NCBI RefSeq assembly: GCF_030695125.1
Contig: NZ_JAUYTP010000068.1
Coordinates: 1-64,000 of the forward strand
Reading direction: 5' to 3'
From: Allobosea sp.
GTDB lineage: Bacteria; Pseudomonadota; Alphaproteobacteria; Rhizobiales; Beijerinckiaceae
Length of the DNA: 64,000 nt
The notes beneath the pieces are model-generated. The model did no database searches and was not told the origin of the DNA. It saw only the letters and a program-made list of their open reading frames with translations. Positions within the stretch are counted from its first letter, which is position 1. Each line of letters begins with the position of its first letter. Below are positions 1-6,046 of this stretch, in pieces. Both the position numbers and the translations under genes were made by a program.

Positions 1-205
1 TACCCCCAGGGCGGTGCCCCGAAGCCTCCCGGGACCGGGGTGCAAACCCGGCCGCAGGCGCCGCGCCCATCCCCACCAACGGCTTGCCTTCCGGATGGCT
101 GCCCCTCAGGGATGAGGTGGGTCGATTATGGGGGTGGTTGGCGGGGCGGGGATAAGTTTGTGGGGAAATACAGCTTGGCAACACAGCGCTGTTCCCTCCA
201 ATGAT
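1..205. other. GC-rich window edge without a recognisable gene
   Basis: This stretch holds no gene that I can support. It contains a long imperfect dyad: CCCCACCAAC at 71-80 pairs with GTTGGCGGGG at 138-147, with GC-rich smaller dyads inside and to the left. It resembles degenerate palindromic intergenic repeats more than a known RNA. I compared it by eye with SRP RNA, RNase P RNA, tmRNA and 6S RNA and found no convincing core. Base composition changes sharply from about position 150, where AT-richer DNA belonging to the next cassette begins. Confidence 0.3.
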
Positions 206-298
206 TCAACGTAGCGCCGGATGAGTTCGCCAAGCGGGTGATGGATTTCTGTTGCATCCCAGAATTGAGGCTCTACCAATTTGATGGCGGGGGGCGTG

Positions 299-1228
299 AT
301 GAAATATCGACGAGCTTGGGACGGTGGGGAGTGGCAAGGCTACGCTCTCCAACTGGTGCAACTTAGGCATGGGCACCAAAACGTCCAGAGCGTTCCAGAT
401 CATGTAGGCGGCGATGCGGGCCTTGAATTTATTCATATAGGCGGCATTAACGATCCTCCCACACTGTATCAATGCTATGCCCCCGGGGAAACCGTTGACA
501 ACAAGAAAGCAGCGATTGCGCAACGCGCGAAAGCGAACAAAGATCTCCAAAAATTGATTTTAAACAAGGATAAACTGTGTAGTTTACTAAAAAATTTATC
601 GATTAAACGTTGGATATTGCTTTGTCCGTTCCTCGACAACAAAGATGTCATCGGATCAACGCGGGCCAAGGCTGTCGAAATTCGTAAGGCAAAATTACCG
701 TTTTTAGCTGAGGATTTTGATGCTCTGGTACACTGCCAGGAGGATTTCGCTGGCGAGATCGAAATCCTGCGGCAACAAACCATGATGCCAATGACGCTTC
801 CGATTCTAAACGCCGACACCGAGTTCGCTGCTACTCGGGATGGCACAATCGGGAGCCGCATTACCGAGAAGCTGAACCGCGGGTTCAAGGCATCGCTTAG
901 CCCCGAGCAAATTGAACAGAGACGCAATGCCTACGTCCGCGCGCATTTATACCGCGAAAACCTTTTAGAAGAACTCAAGCTCAACCACCCGGCCCTCTGG
1001 GATCGTTCAATTCAAACTCTTTCGGCTGAAGAGGAGCGGCTCGCTGCGGTGGGCGCCAGCTCTGACATTCCCGGGATACAGCTAAAGGAGAGCGTCGAGC
1101 GGATCGAATTGGCCCTCCAAAAAGATCTGCCAAATATGGCTCTCTCGTTTGCGACCCAAGTTGCGATTGGAACCGTAGGCGAGTGGTTGATCCGGTGCCC
1201 CCTCGACTTTCCAGGGGATGACGCATGA
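299..1228 (+). CDS. ABC-3C system effector, Mrr-like putative nuclease
   Basis: First gene of a three-gene cassette. The N-terminal 65 residues look like a Mrr-type restriction endonuclease core: GDAGLE at about 38-43 and the strand YQCY at 57-60 occupy the places of the GDxGID and QxK motifs. The rest is mostly helical and ends with a conserved-looking LPFLAEDFDALVHCQEDF-type segment. I infer a DNA- or RNA-targeting effector of an ABC-three-component conflict system. The usual catalytic Lys after QC is Tyr here, so activity is uncertain. I prefer ATG 299 because a G-run lies just upstream; TTG 281, ATG 284 and GTG 296 are alternatives. Its stop overlaps the next start (ATGA). It is visibly AT-richer than the flagellar genes, suggesting transfer. 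Confidence 0.6.
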   Translation: MKYRRAWDGGEWQGYALQLVQLRHGHQNVQSVPDHVGGDAGLEFIHIGGINDPPTLYQCYAPGETVDNKKAAIAQRAKANKDLQKLILNKDKLCSLLKNLSIKRWILLCPFLDNKDVIGSTRAKAVEIRKAKLPFLAEDFDALVHCQEDFAGEIEILRQQTMMPMTLPILNADTEFAATRDGTIGSRITEKLNRGFKASLSPEQIEQRRNAYVRAHLYRENLLEELKLNHPALWDRSIQTLSAEEERLAAVGASSDIPGIQLKESVERIELALQKDLPNMALSFATQVAIGTVGEWLIRCPLDFPGDDA

Positions 1229-1707
1229 GCCTGACAATTGGGCCGCAGCGGTTCTCCTTCAGAAAAAGACCAATTGCAGTTCCAGGCGATCTTCGGATCG
1301 AGTGGCGAGTTTCGATCATCGTCCTGATGCTGGGCTTCTCCCGATCAAAGCAAGCCTCGTTGGCGAAACTTCACCTCCTTAACGATGCTGTCCGCGCGCC
1401 GAAAGCTGCAGCCCTCCTTGATCTCGTGGTCAGCTCAAGCCCCGGCAGGATACCTTGGACATTTCGAATTGAGCCCGCCTTCGGGCGAGCTATAGACTTT
1501 GTTGTGGGAGACGGGTTGGCCGGATGGACAACAACGGCAGACCGCTCAGCGCTTCAACTTTCAATCAAAGGCGTTACACTATTTGAGTCTCTAAAGAAAG
1601 AACACGATTTGCTGACATCCGAAAGAGATTTGCTAAGCAAATATGCAAAATCGATGACAGAGGCAATTGTCTCCGCGGTTATTGGCGCAGCGCGTAGGGC
1701 GACATGA
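1225..1707 (+). CDS. ABC-3C system middle component
   Basis: A 160-residue protein lying between the putative nuclease and the ABC ATPase, joined to both by ATGA overlaps, so the three are almost certainly translated as a unit. Residues about 25-65 look like a small helical, winged-helix-like region, and residues about 120-150 form a charged amphipathic helix (LKKEHDLLTSERDLLSKYAK). No catalytic motif is visible. The position and size match the small middle components of ABC-three-component systems, thought to bridge ATPase and effector. The assignment rests mainly on context because these proteins diverge strongly in sequence. Confidence 0.55.
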   Translation: MSLTIGPQRFSFRKRPIAVPGDLRIEWRVSIIVLMLGFSRSKQASLAKLHLLNDAVRAPKAAALLDLVVSSSPGRIPWTFRIEPAFGRAIDFVVGDGLAGWTTTADRSALQLSIKGVTLFESLKKEHDLLTSERDLLSKYAKSMTEAIVSAVIGAARRAT

Positions 1708-3740
1708 TTCACATTACCCACCTGCGGCTGCGCGCCATCACTGCCGATCACGTTTATGGCACCGATATTCCATTTGAGGCCGGCCTAAACGTCGTTCAAG
1801 CTAACAATACGTCAGGCAAATCGACATCCCTCCAAGCGATTATCTATGCATTGGGATTAGAGCGCGCCCTTGGCCCACAGCTAGACATACCTCTTCCTTA
1901 CGCCATGCGGGAGAAAATCCACGCGCACGAGGATGATGAATACGAACTCGTCATTCAGTCTTACGTAGAGATAGAAATTCGCAATCATACGGGCCGGTCT
2001 GTAGTAATTCGTCGGGATGTCGTAGGCGGCAAGGATCGTCGGCTTATTCAAACTTGGGCGGGGCCAGGCCTTGCTGCAAATCGAGAGCGCTCAAACCCGC
2101 ACGACTACTACGTCCTTGATGGCGGCGCAGCGCAGGCAGAAGACGGTTTTCATCGCTTCCTCACCAATTTTATCGGGTGGGAGCTGCCAATGGTATCACG
2201 TTTTGATGGCAGCGAGTGTCCTCTCTATTTGGAGGCAATCTTCCCGATGCTCTTCGTCGAGCAGAAGCGAGGATGGTCGACGATTCAAGGACCTTTCCCG
2301 ACATTTCTCCGCATTCAGGATGTTGCGCGCCGCGTTATGGAATTCATGCTCGATCTGGATGTCGGACGAATCCGTCGGCGAAGAGCAGAACTACGCAGCG
2401 CGGTCGCTGCAACAGCCCAACGCTGGGCCCACCGTCGCACCGCATTAGAAGATGTAGCTCAACGCATTGGCCGGCTGAGGGGGGTTCCCCAAGTCCCGAC
2501 AGCCGAATTCGCCCATACGCCTGAAATAATACTTGAGGTAATCCGCAATGGCGAATGGATCACGCTTAATGAAGCCGTGAATGGCGCCAAAGCCCGCATC
2601 GCAGAACTAGAAGGTGTTCCCATCGAGAGCACCGAAGACGCGGTCCCCGAGATGACCTCGCGCCTTGAGGTGGTTCGGGGAGATATTGACTCACTAAGTG
2701 CTCAGCTCGAAGCCATCCGTGCGGAGCACAACGGAGAAGAACAAGAGCGCCAGGCTCTGCGAGCGCGTTTGCAGGCCCTGGAAGCGGACTTGAAGCGTAA
2801 TCAAGACGCTCAGAAGCTGAAGCGGCTTGGATCGCAACTGGGACGCGCTGCCGGTGAGCATGTCTGCCCAACCTGCCATCAAGAAGTGACCGGCGAGCTT
2901 CTGCCGGCCATAGAAGCCGTCGGCATGGGCCTCGACGAAAACATTGCGTTCGTTAAGTCGCAGATGCAGCTCTATAGGGTTGCGCTTGATGGCGTGAACC
3001 GCAAAGTCGAAGACTGTCAGGTGCGCTATCGCGCTCAAGATGAAGTATTGCGCGAGCGGCAATCCGAGCTACGACGTTTGCGCCAAGCTATCTTGCAACC
3101 GAGCGCGTCTCCGTCGCGCATTGCGATTGAGGAGATCGTTCGTCTCCAGAGCTTCTTGGAGAGATCGAACTCTTTTGATGAAGCTGCCGAAATTGCCAGC
3201 GAAGAACTAAAGGCGATGGCATTCGAGTGGAGCCGGCTCCAGCAAGAATTAAAAGCGATACCAGCCGACGAATTTTCTTTCGAAGATACGCAGAAAATCA
3301 ATTCCCTCGAAATATCGATACAGAAACGTATTGGATCGTATGGGTTCAGATCGTTTCAACCTTCTGAAATCGTCCTCTCCCGAGAGAACCAGCGCCCTCT
3401 GACAATAACGAGGGACGCGGACGGAGACGTTGTCGAGAAGGAAATCACATTCGAAGTTTCCGCGAGCGACGGCATTCGTCTAAAGTGGGCATATTATCTA
3501 TCTATGCTGCGCCTACCTGGCAAAACGAACCATGCGGGTCTGGTGATCTACGACGAGCCCGGCCAGCAGGAAATCGATGCTCAGAGCCTCTACGCCTTCT
3601 TGCAAGATGGTGCAGCCGAAAAACGGTCCGACCAACAAATCATCATCTCAACGTCGGAACCTCTGCCCGCCGTTCACAAGGCCGTCGGGCTGAACGGCAA
3701 GGTCATTTCGTTTAGCGGCTTTATCCTGCAACCGCTTTGA
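1704..3740 (+). CDS. SMC/RecN-like ABC ATPase of an ABC-3C system
   Basis: A 678-residue ATPase of the SbcC/RecN/SMC type. The Walker A region at about 32-41 reads QANNTSGKST, keeping GKST but with Asn-Asn in place of the usual Gly-rich start. A long coiled coil (about 220-500) carries a CPTC pair at about 391-394, placed like a zinc hook. A degenerate signature (SASDGIRLKWAYYLSML) lies near 590 and a Walker B with acidic pair (LVIYDEP) near 613-619, followed by an IIISTSEP strand. I infer an ATP-driven sensor of nucleic-acid structure controlling the effector at 299-1228. It starts in an ATGA overlap with the middle component. A bidirectional terminator follows at 3822-3856. Confidence 0.7.
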   Translation: MIHITHLRLRAITADHVYGTDIPFEAGLNVVQANNTSGKSTSLQAIIYALGLERALGPQLDIPLPYAMREKIHAHEDDEYELVIQSYVEIEIRNHTGRSVVIRRDVVGGKDRRLIQTWAGPGLAANRERSNPHDYYVLDGGAAQAEDGFHRFLTNFIGWELPMVSRFDGSECPLYLEAIFPMLFVEQKRGWSTIQGPFPTFLRIQDVARRVMEFMLDLDVGRIRRRRAELRSAVAATAQRWAHRRTALEDVAQRIGRLRGVPQVPTAEFAHTPEIILEVIRNGEWITLNEAVNGAKARIAELEGVPIESTEDAVPEMTSRLEVVRGDIDSLSAQLEAIRAEHNGEEQERQALRARLQALEADLKRNQDAQKLKRLGSQLGRAAGEHVCPTCHQEVTGELLPAIEAVGMGLDENIAFVKSQMQLYRVALDGVNRKVEDCQVRYRAQDEVLRERQSELRRLRQAILQPSASPSRIAIEEIVRLQSFLERSNSFDEAAEIASEELKAMAFEWSRLQQELKAIPADEFSFEDTQKINSLEISIQKRIGSYGFRSFQPSEIVLSRENQRPLTITRDADGDVVEKEITFEVSASDGIRLKWAYYLSMLRLPGKTNHAGLVIYDEPGQQEIDAQSLYAFLQDGAAEKRSDQQIIISTSEPLPAVHKAVGLNGKVISFSGFILQPL

Positions 3741-3821
3741 GACGGTGGATGGCAACCAAGGGCGCGAGCGTTCGCTCGAATCGACCATGTTGACGTCTGG
3801 AGACGTTCCATCGTCCGACGC

Positions 3822-3856
3822 AAAAAACCCCGCGTCGGGAGAACGCGGGGCTTCTT
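3822..3856. terminator. Bidirectional Rho-independent terminator
   Basis: CCCCGCG (3828-3834) pairs with CGCGGGG (3844-3850). Six A residues precede the stem and a T-rich CTTCTT follows, so it can end both the rightward ABC-3C operon and the leftward flgFGAH operon. Confidence 0.75.
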
Positions 3857-4100
3857 GTTGGGCCGCCTGCCCTGAAATGCCGGGGAGCGTGGCGGGCGGC
3901 CGGGTGGGTCGGCGGCTCGGGAGAGACCGCCTGCCGGCTGGCGCGGGGAGAGCGGGGAGCGTTCCGCGCCGGCCGGGATGGGGAAGCGTGTCGGTGAGAT
4001 CCTTCGTGAAGGGCTTGGGGAACCCGCCGTCATCCGGGGCGAGCTGCGACAGCGGCGCCGGCCTTGGTCCATCCTCGGGCGGCGTCCCGCCCTTCGCTGG

Positions 4101-4154: not shown

Positions 4155-4937
4155 CTAGAACGGCAGCAGGATGTCCATCACCTGCTGGCCGTAGCGCGGC
4201 TGCTGGACGTCGGTGATCTGGCCGCGGCCGCCATAGGCGATGCGGGCCTGGGCGATCTTGCTGGACTCGATGGTGTTATCACTCTCGATGTCCTCGGGCC
4301 GGATCACGCCGGCCACGATCAGCTCACGGACCTCGAAATTGACCCGGATCTCCTGCTTGCCTTCGATCACCAGATTGCCGTTGGGGAGCGTCTGGGTGAC
4401 CACCGCGGCGACGTTGGTCGCCAGCGTCTCGGAGCGGTTGACCGAGCCCGTGCCCTCGCTCGAGGCGGTGGAATCGAGCTTCAGCAACGAGCCGGCGCTG
4501 GCGCCGTCCGGCAGGAACTTGTCGAGCTTGTTCTCGAAGCCGAAGGCGTTGTCGGCGCCGACATCCTCGCCGTTCTTGCGGCTGCGCTTGGTGGTGTTGC
4601 TGAGCTGCGCCCGGTCGGTGACCTTGACCTTCACCGTGACCAGATCGCCGACGAGCCGGGCGCGCTGGTCCTTGAAGAAGGCGCGCGAGCCGGTGCGCCA
4701 GAGCGAGTTCGGCGCAAAGGAGGCATGCTCCATCGCCGGCATCGGCATCTGCACGGGCTTGTAGCCCTTGCTCGCGGTCGGGTCCTCGATCGGCGACAGC
4801 GCCGGCGCCTGGCCGACATTGGCGAGCCGGTCGACGGCGCTGCAGGCGCCGAGCGAAACGCCCAGCAGCAGCGCGCCGGAGAGCCTCAGGAGGCGGTGGC
4901 GGGTTTCGGCGACAGGGAGCTTTGACAAACGGGTCAT
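4155..4937 (-). CDS. flgH: Flagellar L-ring lipoprotein FlgH
   Basis: FlgH forms the outer-membrane L-ring through which the flagellar rod passes. The N-terminus is a lipoprotein signal with lipobox LGAC, and the C-terminal half has the FlgH pattern (LVTVKVKVTDRAQLSN near the middle, a VIRPEDI segment, and the ending YGQQVMDILLPF). I chose ATG 4937 because GGAAAG lies about 8 bases upstream; a TTG at 4964 overlapping the flgA stop is the alternative. It is the last gene of the leftward flgF-flgG-flgA-flgH operon, and the terminator at 3822-3856 lies about 300 bases beyond its stop. The order matches flgFGAH clusters in other alphaproteobacteria. Confidence 0.95.
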   Translation of the reverse strand: MTRLSKLPVAETRHRLLRLSGALLLGVSLGACSAVDRLANVGQAPALSPIEDPTASKGYKPVQMPMPAMEHASFAPNSLWRTGSRAFFKDQRARLVGDLVTVKVKVTDRAQLSNTTKRSRKNGEDVGADNAFGFENKLDKFLPDGASAGSLLKLDSTASSEGTGSVNRSETLATNVAAVVTQTLPNGNLVIEGKQEIRVNFEVRELIVAGVIRPEDIESDNTIESSKIAQARIAYGGRGQITDVQQPRYGQQVMDILLPF

Positions 4938-4960
4938 GGCAGGGACTTTCCGTGACGGGT

Positions 4961-6046
4961 TCAACGGGCGGCGGCGACACGGCCGGTCGAGGCCGCCTGG
5001 ATCGAGATCCGGCCTGGCCCGCTGACCGTGCCATGCAGCACGCGCTTGGATTGGGGGTTGGTGACGCTGACGACATCGCCCATCGCGCCGGCTTCGCCGG
5101 CCCGGCCGCGCATGGTGATCGTCAGCCCGCGGGATTCGTAGACCAGGGTGACGAGATCGCCCTTGGCGACGATCTCCTCGCGCTGGACGTCGCCGGCGCG
5201 CAAGGGCGCCCCCGCCATCAGCGCCCGGCGGGCCACCTTGTCGATCGCGGCGCGCGGATCGCCGATCAGATCGTTCGCCTGGCCGTCGCGCGGGCGGCGC
5301 TCGACCAGGACATCGGCCTTGCCCAGCGTCTCGCCGCGGGCGATGGCGCGCCGGGGCACCACGACTTCGACCGTCTCGACCAGTTGACCGGCGATGCGGA
5401 TCGGCTTGAGGCGCATCGCCATGCTGCCGGGCACGCTGACGCGGGCCTGCAGCCGGCGGGTGCGGGAATCATAGCCGAGATCGGTGACCGTGACCTCGCC
5501 GTTGAGCTCGGGCTCGACCGCGATCGCCGGCGCGCCACCGTCGATGGTCAGCGCAAAGGCGCGCGCATCGATGCCGTAGCGCTCCTGCAGGCCGATCTTC
5601 ACCGCCTCCTCGATATCGGACGCCATGATGCGCCGCGCCGCCCGGGTGACCACGACCTGCGCCGCCCCGGCCCCCTCGATCTCGCTGCCCGACTCGATCA
5701 GGCCGGCCGCGCGCGCCGCCTCGACGATGCGCGCCACCTGGATCGTCCCGGTTTCGCCGAGCGCCGGCGCGCGGAAGGCCGGGGTCGCGGCCGCATCGGC
5801 GGGCAGCCCCGCGATCAGGTCGCCGAAGGAGACGAGATCGCGCATCAGGGTGAGTTCGGAGCGCAGCTGCAGCTTGCGCGACGACGCGGCCGCGGGAGGC
5901 ATGCCGGCCGCCGCCGCGACGGTGACGACGAGCGGGCCGGACGCCTGCGGCTGCGCGGCCTGCGCCGACGGAGCCACCAGCAGCGCGAGCGCCAGCGAGA
6001 GCGGGGCCAGGGAGCGCGGAGCGAAAAGGATTGTCGAGCCGATCAT
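4961..6046 (-). CDS. flgA: P-ring assembly chaperone FlgA
   Basis: Periplasmic chaperone that helps assemble FlgI into the P-ring. It starts with a Sec signal peptide ending near SAQA-AQ. The C-terminal third is the SAF-type domain: ARRALMAGAPLRAGDVQREE and a following LVTLVYESRGLTITMRGRA segment. At 361 residues it is on the long side for FlgA, with a larger N-terminal part. Start ATG 6046 follows a GGAGAGG ribosome site. It sits between flgG (17-base gap) and flgH in the same operon. Confidence 0.92.
   Translation of the reverse strand: MIGSTILFAPRSLAPLSLALALLVAPSAQAAQPQASGPLVVTVAAAAGMPPAAASSRKLQLRSELTLMRDLVSFGDLIAGLPADAAATPAFRAPALGETGTIQVARIVEAARAAGLIESGSEIEGAGAAQVVVTRAARRIMASDIEEAVKIGLQERYGIDARAFALTIDGGAPAIAVEPELNGEVTVTDLGYDSRTRRLQARVSVPGSMAMRLKPIRIAGQLVETVEVVVPRRAIARGETLGKADVLVERRPRDGQANDLIGDPRAAIDKVARRALMAGAPLRAGDVQREEIVAKGDLVTLVYESRGLTITMRGRAGEAGAMGDVVSVTNPQSKRVLHGTVSGPGRISIQAASTGRVAAAR

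Follow-up and report, generated by a model that had tools for sequence, protein, structure and literature searches.

A cassette of three overlapping genes, lmuA, lmuC and lmuB, at positions 299-3740 of a 64,000-nucleotide stretch of DNA from Allobosea sp. (contig NZ_JAUYTP010000068.1, here C71; the whole stretch is called the window) is assigned by sequence comparison to the type II Lamassu systems of the ABC-three-component (ABC-3C) kind, with an LmuA branch that appears to lie just beyond the reach of the profile library. It is very probably a horizontally acquired anti-phage or anti-plasmid system, in which sensing of DNA would lead through an LmuA DNase to killing or arrest of the cell, and which would sit as cargo between a structured element of about 430 base pairs (bp) and the terminator of an flgH-like gene. 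The cassette is ordinary in kind and its LmuA is divergent; the setting is the surprising part, and the surroundings of the cassette may matter more than the cassette.

Assignment of the cassette to Lamassu type II

The third protein (LmuB) matched the PADLOC model PDLC03863 with an expectation value (E) of 6.7e-103 over residues 3-671, and the second (LmuC) matched the PADLOC LmuC model PDLC03871 with an E of 1.8e-15. These two matches bear out the ABC-3C conflict system that an earlier note on this DNA had recognized, Lamassu and ABC-3C systems being one superfamily according to a review (the excerpt of PMC10586767 used here, in which the superfamily also includes DdmABC, and all components were required where tested). 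The cassette has the following features.

299-1228, + strand: lmuA, predicted effector (open reading frame (ORF) of 309 residues)
1225-1707, + strand: lmuC, small middle component, predicted winged-helix protein (ORF of 160 residues; PADLOC PDLC03871 and structural model)
1704-3740, + strand: lmuB, SMC/Rad50-like ATPase (ORF of 678 residues; PADLOC PDLC03863 and Pfam AAA_23)
2865-2876, + strand: CPTC zinc-hook motif of LmuB, residues 388-391 (sequence and alignment of 27)
3552-3560, + strand: Walker B motif D617-E618-P619 of LmuB (invariant in 27/27)

The third protein had been read as an SMC-like ATPase with a CPTC hook, and both points hold: LmuB passes the Pfam AAA_23 cut-off (28.2 bits, cut-off 27), and G38-K39-S40, S588-D589, R592, D617-E618-P619, C388-P389 and C391 are invariant in 27/27 aligned sequences, with N35 and T390 kept in at least 90% of them. 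A profile comparison with the Protein Data Bank (PDB) gave mainly Rad50 chains, together with a weak match to the LmuB structure 9ux7 (E 0.0075). LmuC, for which no Pfam match was obtained at E<=1, is predicted from its structural model (mean predicted local distance difference test score (pLDDT) 85) to be a winged-helix protein, the Foldseek list being headed by winged-helix regulators, none of them at E<=0.001. Pfam models for ABC-3C effector and middle-component domains presumably exist. No model placed the first or second protein in a housekeeping family. ORF coordinates reproduce the ATGA stop/start overlaps reported at both joints (1225-1228 and 1704-1707), and the AT-richer composition reported for the cassette is also found, with a guanine-plus-cytosine (GC) content per kb of 0.53-0.57 in positions 1-4000 (about 54% for the cassette) against 0.60-0.75 in every other kb of the window.

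The family to which LmuA belongs is covered by PADLOC, its LmuA model PDLC03852 matching 19/22 aligned members (best E 1.5e-44), and the relative L006, which is 44-45% identical to the window LmuA, matches the same model at 3.4e-19. The window LmuA itself matched a PHROG of unknown function (E 6.1e-22). Within the PADLOC set of PDLC03852, PDLC03863 and PDLC03871, LmuB and LmuC of the window are thus matched, whereas LmuA goes undetected in the window and in two near relatives. The cassette resembles the Lamassu type II and DdmABC systems in its effector-small protein-SMC order, in the homology of LmuB and LmuC, in its gene overlaps and in its horizontal spread, and differs from them in an LmuA that has neither a profile-detectable Cap4 or other effector domain nor the canonical lysine.

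Co-occurrence and distribution

Relatives of LmuA were found in 23 plasmid records, one genome contig and 16 viral contigs, and none in 50,697 phage records; a scan of viral sequences with LmuB alone gave no match. After 17 of the 23 plasmid loci had been fetched, the order LmuA-LmuC-LmuB on one strand was seen at 21/21 bacterial or plasmid loci and at 16/16 viral-contig loci. Several of the viral copies are near-identical, and of LmuA only the end is present in L041; in L007, LmuC is partial. The trio therefore co-occurs elsewhere, in 37/37 relatives examined. The 16 viral contigs (L027-L042) come from IMG/VR and carry the same Lamassu subtype, which suggests carriage by prophages or their relatives. 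In four relatives (L014, L019, L021 and L032) the LmuB match is broken into two or more frames, possibly through decay, and in L007 an IS5-type transposase separates lmuA from what is left of lmuC.

Among 200 related genomes, four, the own genome included, had an LmuA relative (LmuA sequence, E<=1e-3), and the LmuB profile (E<=1e-20) picked the same four. In a class sample of 385 genomes, the own genome was the sole match for both the LmuA profile (1e-10) and the LmuB profile (1e-30); in these searches of genus, family and class, a limited number of first-look candidates was scored per genome. Because the presence of lmuA and lmuB is patchy and linked, the distribution fits horizontal transfer.

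Residues and predicted fold of LmuA

The predicted fold of LmuA is PD-(D/E)XK-like. Its model, built with AlphaFold2 from 11 sequences (mean pLDDT 80, predicted template modelling score 0.55), has the helix-strand-strand-strand-helix-strand order of PD-(D/E)XK (alpha-beta-beta-beta-alpha-beta) enzymes; Q58 lies on the third strand, and the helix that follows (residues 68-88) carries K78, D82 and K85. In a Foldseek search of the PDB with this model, the first rank was taken by another LmuA (9nxx_B; E 2.8e-3, probability 0.87, template modelling score 0.23), followed by FokI at rank 2, LmuA 9hr5 at ranks 3-4, Shedu at 6, HindIII at 8 and EcoO109I at 17. The "Mrr-like putative nuclease" of the earlier note stands in part: the predicted fold resembles PD-(D/E)XK nucleases, as a guess at the level of fold, and no nuclease profile was matched. 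Mrr was rejected as the family of LmuA; the 22 members together match five Pfam families at E<=0.1, and neither an Mrr model nor any other nuclease model is among these.

The window LmuA carries G38-D39-x-G41, E43, Q58-C-Y60, K78, D82 and K85, together with a C-terminal W296..C300-P-L. Residues W12, G38, G41, Q58, Y60, D82, K85, W296 and C300 are invariant in 22/22 members, D39 and K78 are kept in 21/22, and position 43 is E or D in 22/22; five extra residues before Q58 occur in the window LmuA and not in the other 21 members. The lysine of the canonical ExK/QxK motif is replaced by the invariant Tyr60 (22/22, and 11/11 in a second alignment with two shared sequences), so a classical cleavage mechanism is not assured. 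Catalytic residues migrate in the PD-(D/E)XK superfamily, and the likeliest substitute would be a lysine from the next helix, K78 or K85. The divergent LmuA thus escapes a standard defence annotation library, and its Q-x-Y motif gives a specific, testable catalytic hypothesis.

Proposed function and its alternatives

The cassette is proposed to act as other Lamassu systems do, and its complex formation, DNA sensing, nuclease activity and cell killing are inferred by this analogy. SMC/Rad50-like LmuB together with LmuC would sense abnormal DNA such as ends, hairpins or stalled forks, and sensing would release LmuA. The freed LmuA would then oligomerize and act as a PD-(D/E)XK-like DNase, which could kill or arrest the infected cell. 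Sensing of DNA hairpins or ends has been proposed for Lamassu (excerpt of PMC12904381); preprints mentioned in a review addendum describe a liberated LmuA that forms a tetramer, activating its Cap4 nuclease domain (excerpt of PMC12409362); and a cloned Lamassu type II system lowered plaquing of at least one phage in E. coli (excerpt of PMC8565338). Published plasmid and phage phenotypes and solved structures are available for Lamassu and DdmABC, so the earlier description of the mechanism as largely untested is to be corrected.

Several findings weigh against an LmuA nuclease in a Lamassu system. The window LmuA had no match at E<=1 in PADLOC, Pfam or NCBIfam, and its near relatives L003 and L007 matched no PADLOC model even at E<=10; the Foldseek match of the model is weak, no structure reaching E<=0.001, and unrelated proteins are mixed into the ranking, including an Mre11-Rad50-Nbs1 chain (rank 5) and rhamnose isomerases (rank 7 onward). 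Given the tyrosine in place of the canonical lysine and the lack of a nuclease profile match, LmuA could be a catalytically dead or non-nuclease PD-(D/E)XK relative that serves as a DNA-binding or structural partner, with killing from another activity; this is considered unlikely, since the conserved D39, E/D43, Q58, K78, D82 and K85 are what would be expected of an active site with its lysine on the following helix, and enzymatic activity of LmuA was required wherever tested in other Lamassu systems (excerpt of PMC10586767). The likeness of LmuB to Rad50 and SMC proteins might also suggest a Rad50/SbcC-like DNA repair module in place of an immune system. Such a module is very improbable: the PADLOC LmuB match is far above that of the best Rad50/SMC model (6.2e-14), the trio is patchy among the relatives and occurs on plasmids and viral contigs, and genes of BREX, type I restriction-modification, AbiE and SIR2 systems are neighbours of some cassette relatives. 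A horizontally acquired Lamassu type II system is the preferred reading of the cassette.

The insertion hotspot beside flgH

On either side of the cassette, the window has the following features.

1-158, + strand: right-hand 158 bp of the dispersed structured ~430-bp element (nine own-genome matches; full length in other copies)
3822-3850, - strand: terminator-like hairpin 3' of flgH, right edge of inserted DNA (similarity to relatives starts there; "terminator" is read from the sequence)
4155-4964, - strand: flgH-like gene, host flank of the hotspot (matched in 31/31 genus genomes searched)

The genes from 4155 onward are presumably of flagellar type, flgH being among the names we assume for them. 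In most of 20 flgH regions, similarity to relatives on the flgH side starts at about 3819-3828. The distance from the flgH terminator to the next conserved gene, which we take to be dksA, ranges from 8 bp to 12 kb in the 18/20 regions (L061-L080) where it is readable, two regions ending at a contig edge. In the relative G010, the counterpart of window positions 4-115 lies by flgH about 98 bp from the terminator, as against the 3.7-kb cassette in the window. Four genomes with the element at flgH carry four unrelated cargos.

G000 (the window): Lamassu; GC 0.54
G015: Hachiman hamA-hamB, L062:913-4211 (E 1e-136 and 3e-222); GC 0.50
G009: DndB/DpdB-like protein and D12 adenine methyltransferase, L064:10523-13795; GC 0.54
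G025: S-adenosylmethionine-dependent methyltransferase and a protein of no known family; GC 0.62

The G009 pair is possibly a modification-based system. Seven further flgH inserts without the element have a GC of 0.61-0.68, and four genes scanned from such inserts comprise a peroxidase and a LysR regulator (G028), a sulfate permease (G012) and one gene without a match (G024).

Position 1 of the window is base 1 of C71, one of 87 contigs of a 5.13-Mb genome, and C71 breaks inside a repeat. The isolated position once ascribed to the cassette is therefore not upheld: the contig starts in this repeat, and the site is an insertion hotspot. As the contig ends there, the left edge of the insertion lies outside the window, a point against the reading of the cassette as cargo of the hotspot. 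The ends of contigs C65, C67 and C71 share the same 141 bases of the element, and because of synteny with G010, G009 and G025, the sequence comparison points to C65 (reversed), and not C67, as the left neighbour of the window. A tRNA or known RNA was considered as an integration site; none was found in the window or beside flgH in five relatives. Fast-changing defence cargo at fixed chromosomal places is also described in excerpts on the core defence hotspots of P. aeruginosa (PMC10250203) and the defence islands of E. coli (PMC10121019), from which the present site differs in that one border is a repeated structured element found at many sites of the same genome.

The structured element

The element measures about 430 bp between well-kept ends, with perhaps about 40 bp more on the left, an example of a full copy being L104:7534-7967. 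A search with its last 120 bp gave nine matches in the own genome; within the genus, 26/31 genomes have matches, of which some are short. In the family sample, with three candidates scored per genome, at least 9/199 genomes had a match at 1e-20, eight of these being of the same genus, so that within the samples searched the element is almost restricted to a single genus.

Two hairpins with TTGAGCCA loops are present. In the 39/48 copies with both loops that were used (nine were dropped), 305/312 positions of the second stem are paired against a shuffled mean of 258.7, and 287/312 of the first against 268.4, with 0/1000 shuffles as good in either case; the shuffle ignores relatedness. Several stem positions change on both sides, and an alignment fold of 41 copies gave 79 pairs, 15 of them with two-sided changes and 1.8% non-canonical cells. 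Folding energy of the whole element is moderately low (z-scores of -2.09 as RNA and -1.55 as DNA) and is modest evidence for structure, the two hairpins being better supported. No Rfam gathering match was obtained in the window or in L048-L052, and the sole match at E<=1 in L101 1-700 was ybhL (E 0.17; 23.4 bits against 50).

A role as a promoter of the cargo was rejected, since the direction of the cargo varies (away from the element in the window and in G009, towards the element in G015), and so was an origin as the end of a phage or plasmid, the element having been found in neither; nor did one 22-base exact pattern find it in viral contigs. No description of such an element bordering defence cargo was found by title or abstract start in the open-licence literature with a few search terms, a silence which is weak evidence of novelty.

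Low-GC cargo on one side of the element

Seventy-five regions were fetched (20 beside flgH, 15 from three genomes and 40 mostly in score order from the listing), giving 61 element matches including the window; the comparison was made on the 51 that have both flanks and an almost complete right end. Mean GC of the 1.5-kb flanks is 0.681 on the left and 0.568 on the right, the right being lower in 46 copies; GC is below 0.60 on the right of 30/51 copies and on the left of 0/51. The Wilcoxon p of 3e-9 for this asymmetry is overstated, since copies share sites. When the copies were grouped by left flank, 11 sites proved common to at least two genomes and another 12 were single; among the latter, left sequence is short or lacking in the window, L062, L102 and L135.

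The right-side DNA is diverse. Only two of 74 low-GC ORFs are alike at 1e-5, and at the commonest site, shared by 15 genomes, 21 cargo ORFs fall into 21 unrelated clusters, which makes them candidates to screen for new defence genes. The 71 right-side low-GC ORFs outside the window match 160 PADLOC models, and 71 length-matched left-side ORFs match three (mad3, mad8 and AriA); these counts are of models, which are redundant, and not of systems, and the ORFs, all mechanical and of at least 110 residues, were filtered to GC <0.62 on the right and unfiltered on the left. Among the matches listed (25/160) are HamA, HamB, Drt9, AbiU, dCTPase, LmuA (two ORFs), PD-Lambda-2, type II and orphan methyltransferases and candidate PDC systems, with Hachiman, DRT9 and AbiU among the types. 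The right-side ORFs also match 46 Pfam families, and the 25 listed include SIR2, AIPR, HD, RelA/SpoT, RES, Schlafen and reverse transcriptase, along with sulfatase and others without a known defence link. A shared right-end motif of the cargo was sought by all-against-all comparison of 38 regions and rejected, the recurrent matches being read as orthologous host flanks.

Readings of the association between element and cargo

The element could be a fixed port of chromosomal defence capture, at which single foreign operons are inserted one-sidedly by machinery acting in trans, at several sites within one genus, and repeatedly replaced, the Lamassu cassette of the window being one of them. This is offered tentatively and regarded as rather unlikely, in part because GC is not low in the cargo of G025 and because it is uncertain how many of the sites are independent. 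Further points count against it: the right side is not lower in GC in five of the 51 copies; sites are fewer than copies, and their true number is uncertain, 31 loci being chained together when right flanks are used for grouping; no recombinase is among the 25 of 46 cargo Pfam families listed; and G001 and G008 carry low-GC inserts at the commonest site without a detectable element. These last two observations, the fall of 51 copies into far fewer sites, and the absence of the element from plasmids and phages and of its 22-base piece from viral contigs favour an indirect link. The element would then be an intergenic RNA or repeat of the ordinary multi-copy type, insertions would be tolerated at a few of the intergenic sites that bear it, and homologous recombination in flanking genes would swap the cargo. 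Such a link has a little under an even chance; it is opposed by a GC asymmetry that is one-sided at several different sites, and by the flgH site, where the cargo from element to terminator has a GC of 0.50-0.54 in three genomes and 0.62 in the fourth (G025), as against 0.61-0.68 for the seven element-less inserts.

In integrons, defence cassettes stand beside a recurring hairpin-bearing non-coding sequence, and the window site likewise has single defence systems by such a sequence. The likeness is to sedentary chromosomal integrons, which are named as defence biobanks in the excerpt of PMC12409362; the present case differs in having dispersed single sites and no array, an element of about 430 bp, and no integrase in the cargo families listed. 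The capture port would be integron-like in function, its sites being single and dispersed and a large folded element taking the place of attI/attC. If the element does mark the entry of defence genes, its right flank would be a place to seek unknown anti-phage systems in this genus, and it would give a way to study the movement of single defence systems without a visible adjacent recombinase.

At one site, called site A, the right-hand host sequence starts at nearly the same base in most genomes and opens with what we take to be a promoter-like hexamer; the constant start may reflect selection and not a junction. The left host flank of site A was found in 3/10 further genomes, an eleventh sequence (G015, 739 bases) having been dropped as too short. 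Apparently cut-down copies of the element stand at two sites without cargo, beside flgH in G010 (112 bp) and, as judged by eye, at site A in G020.

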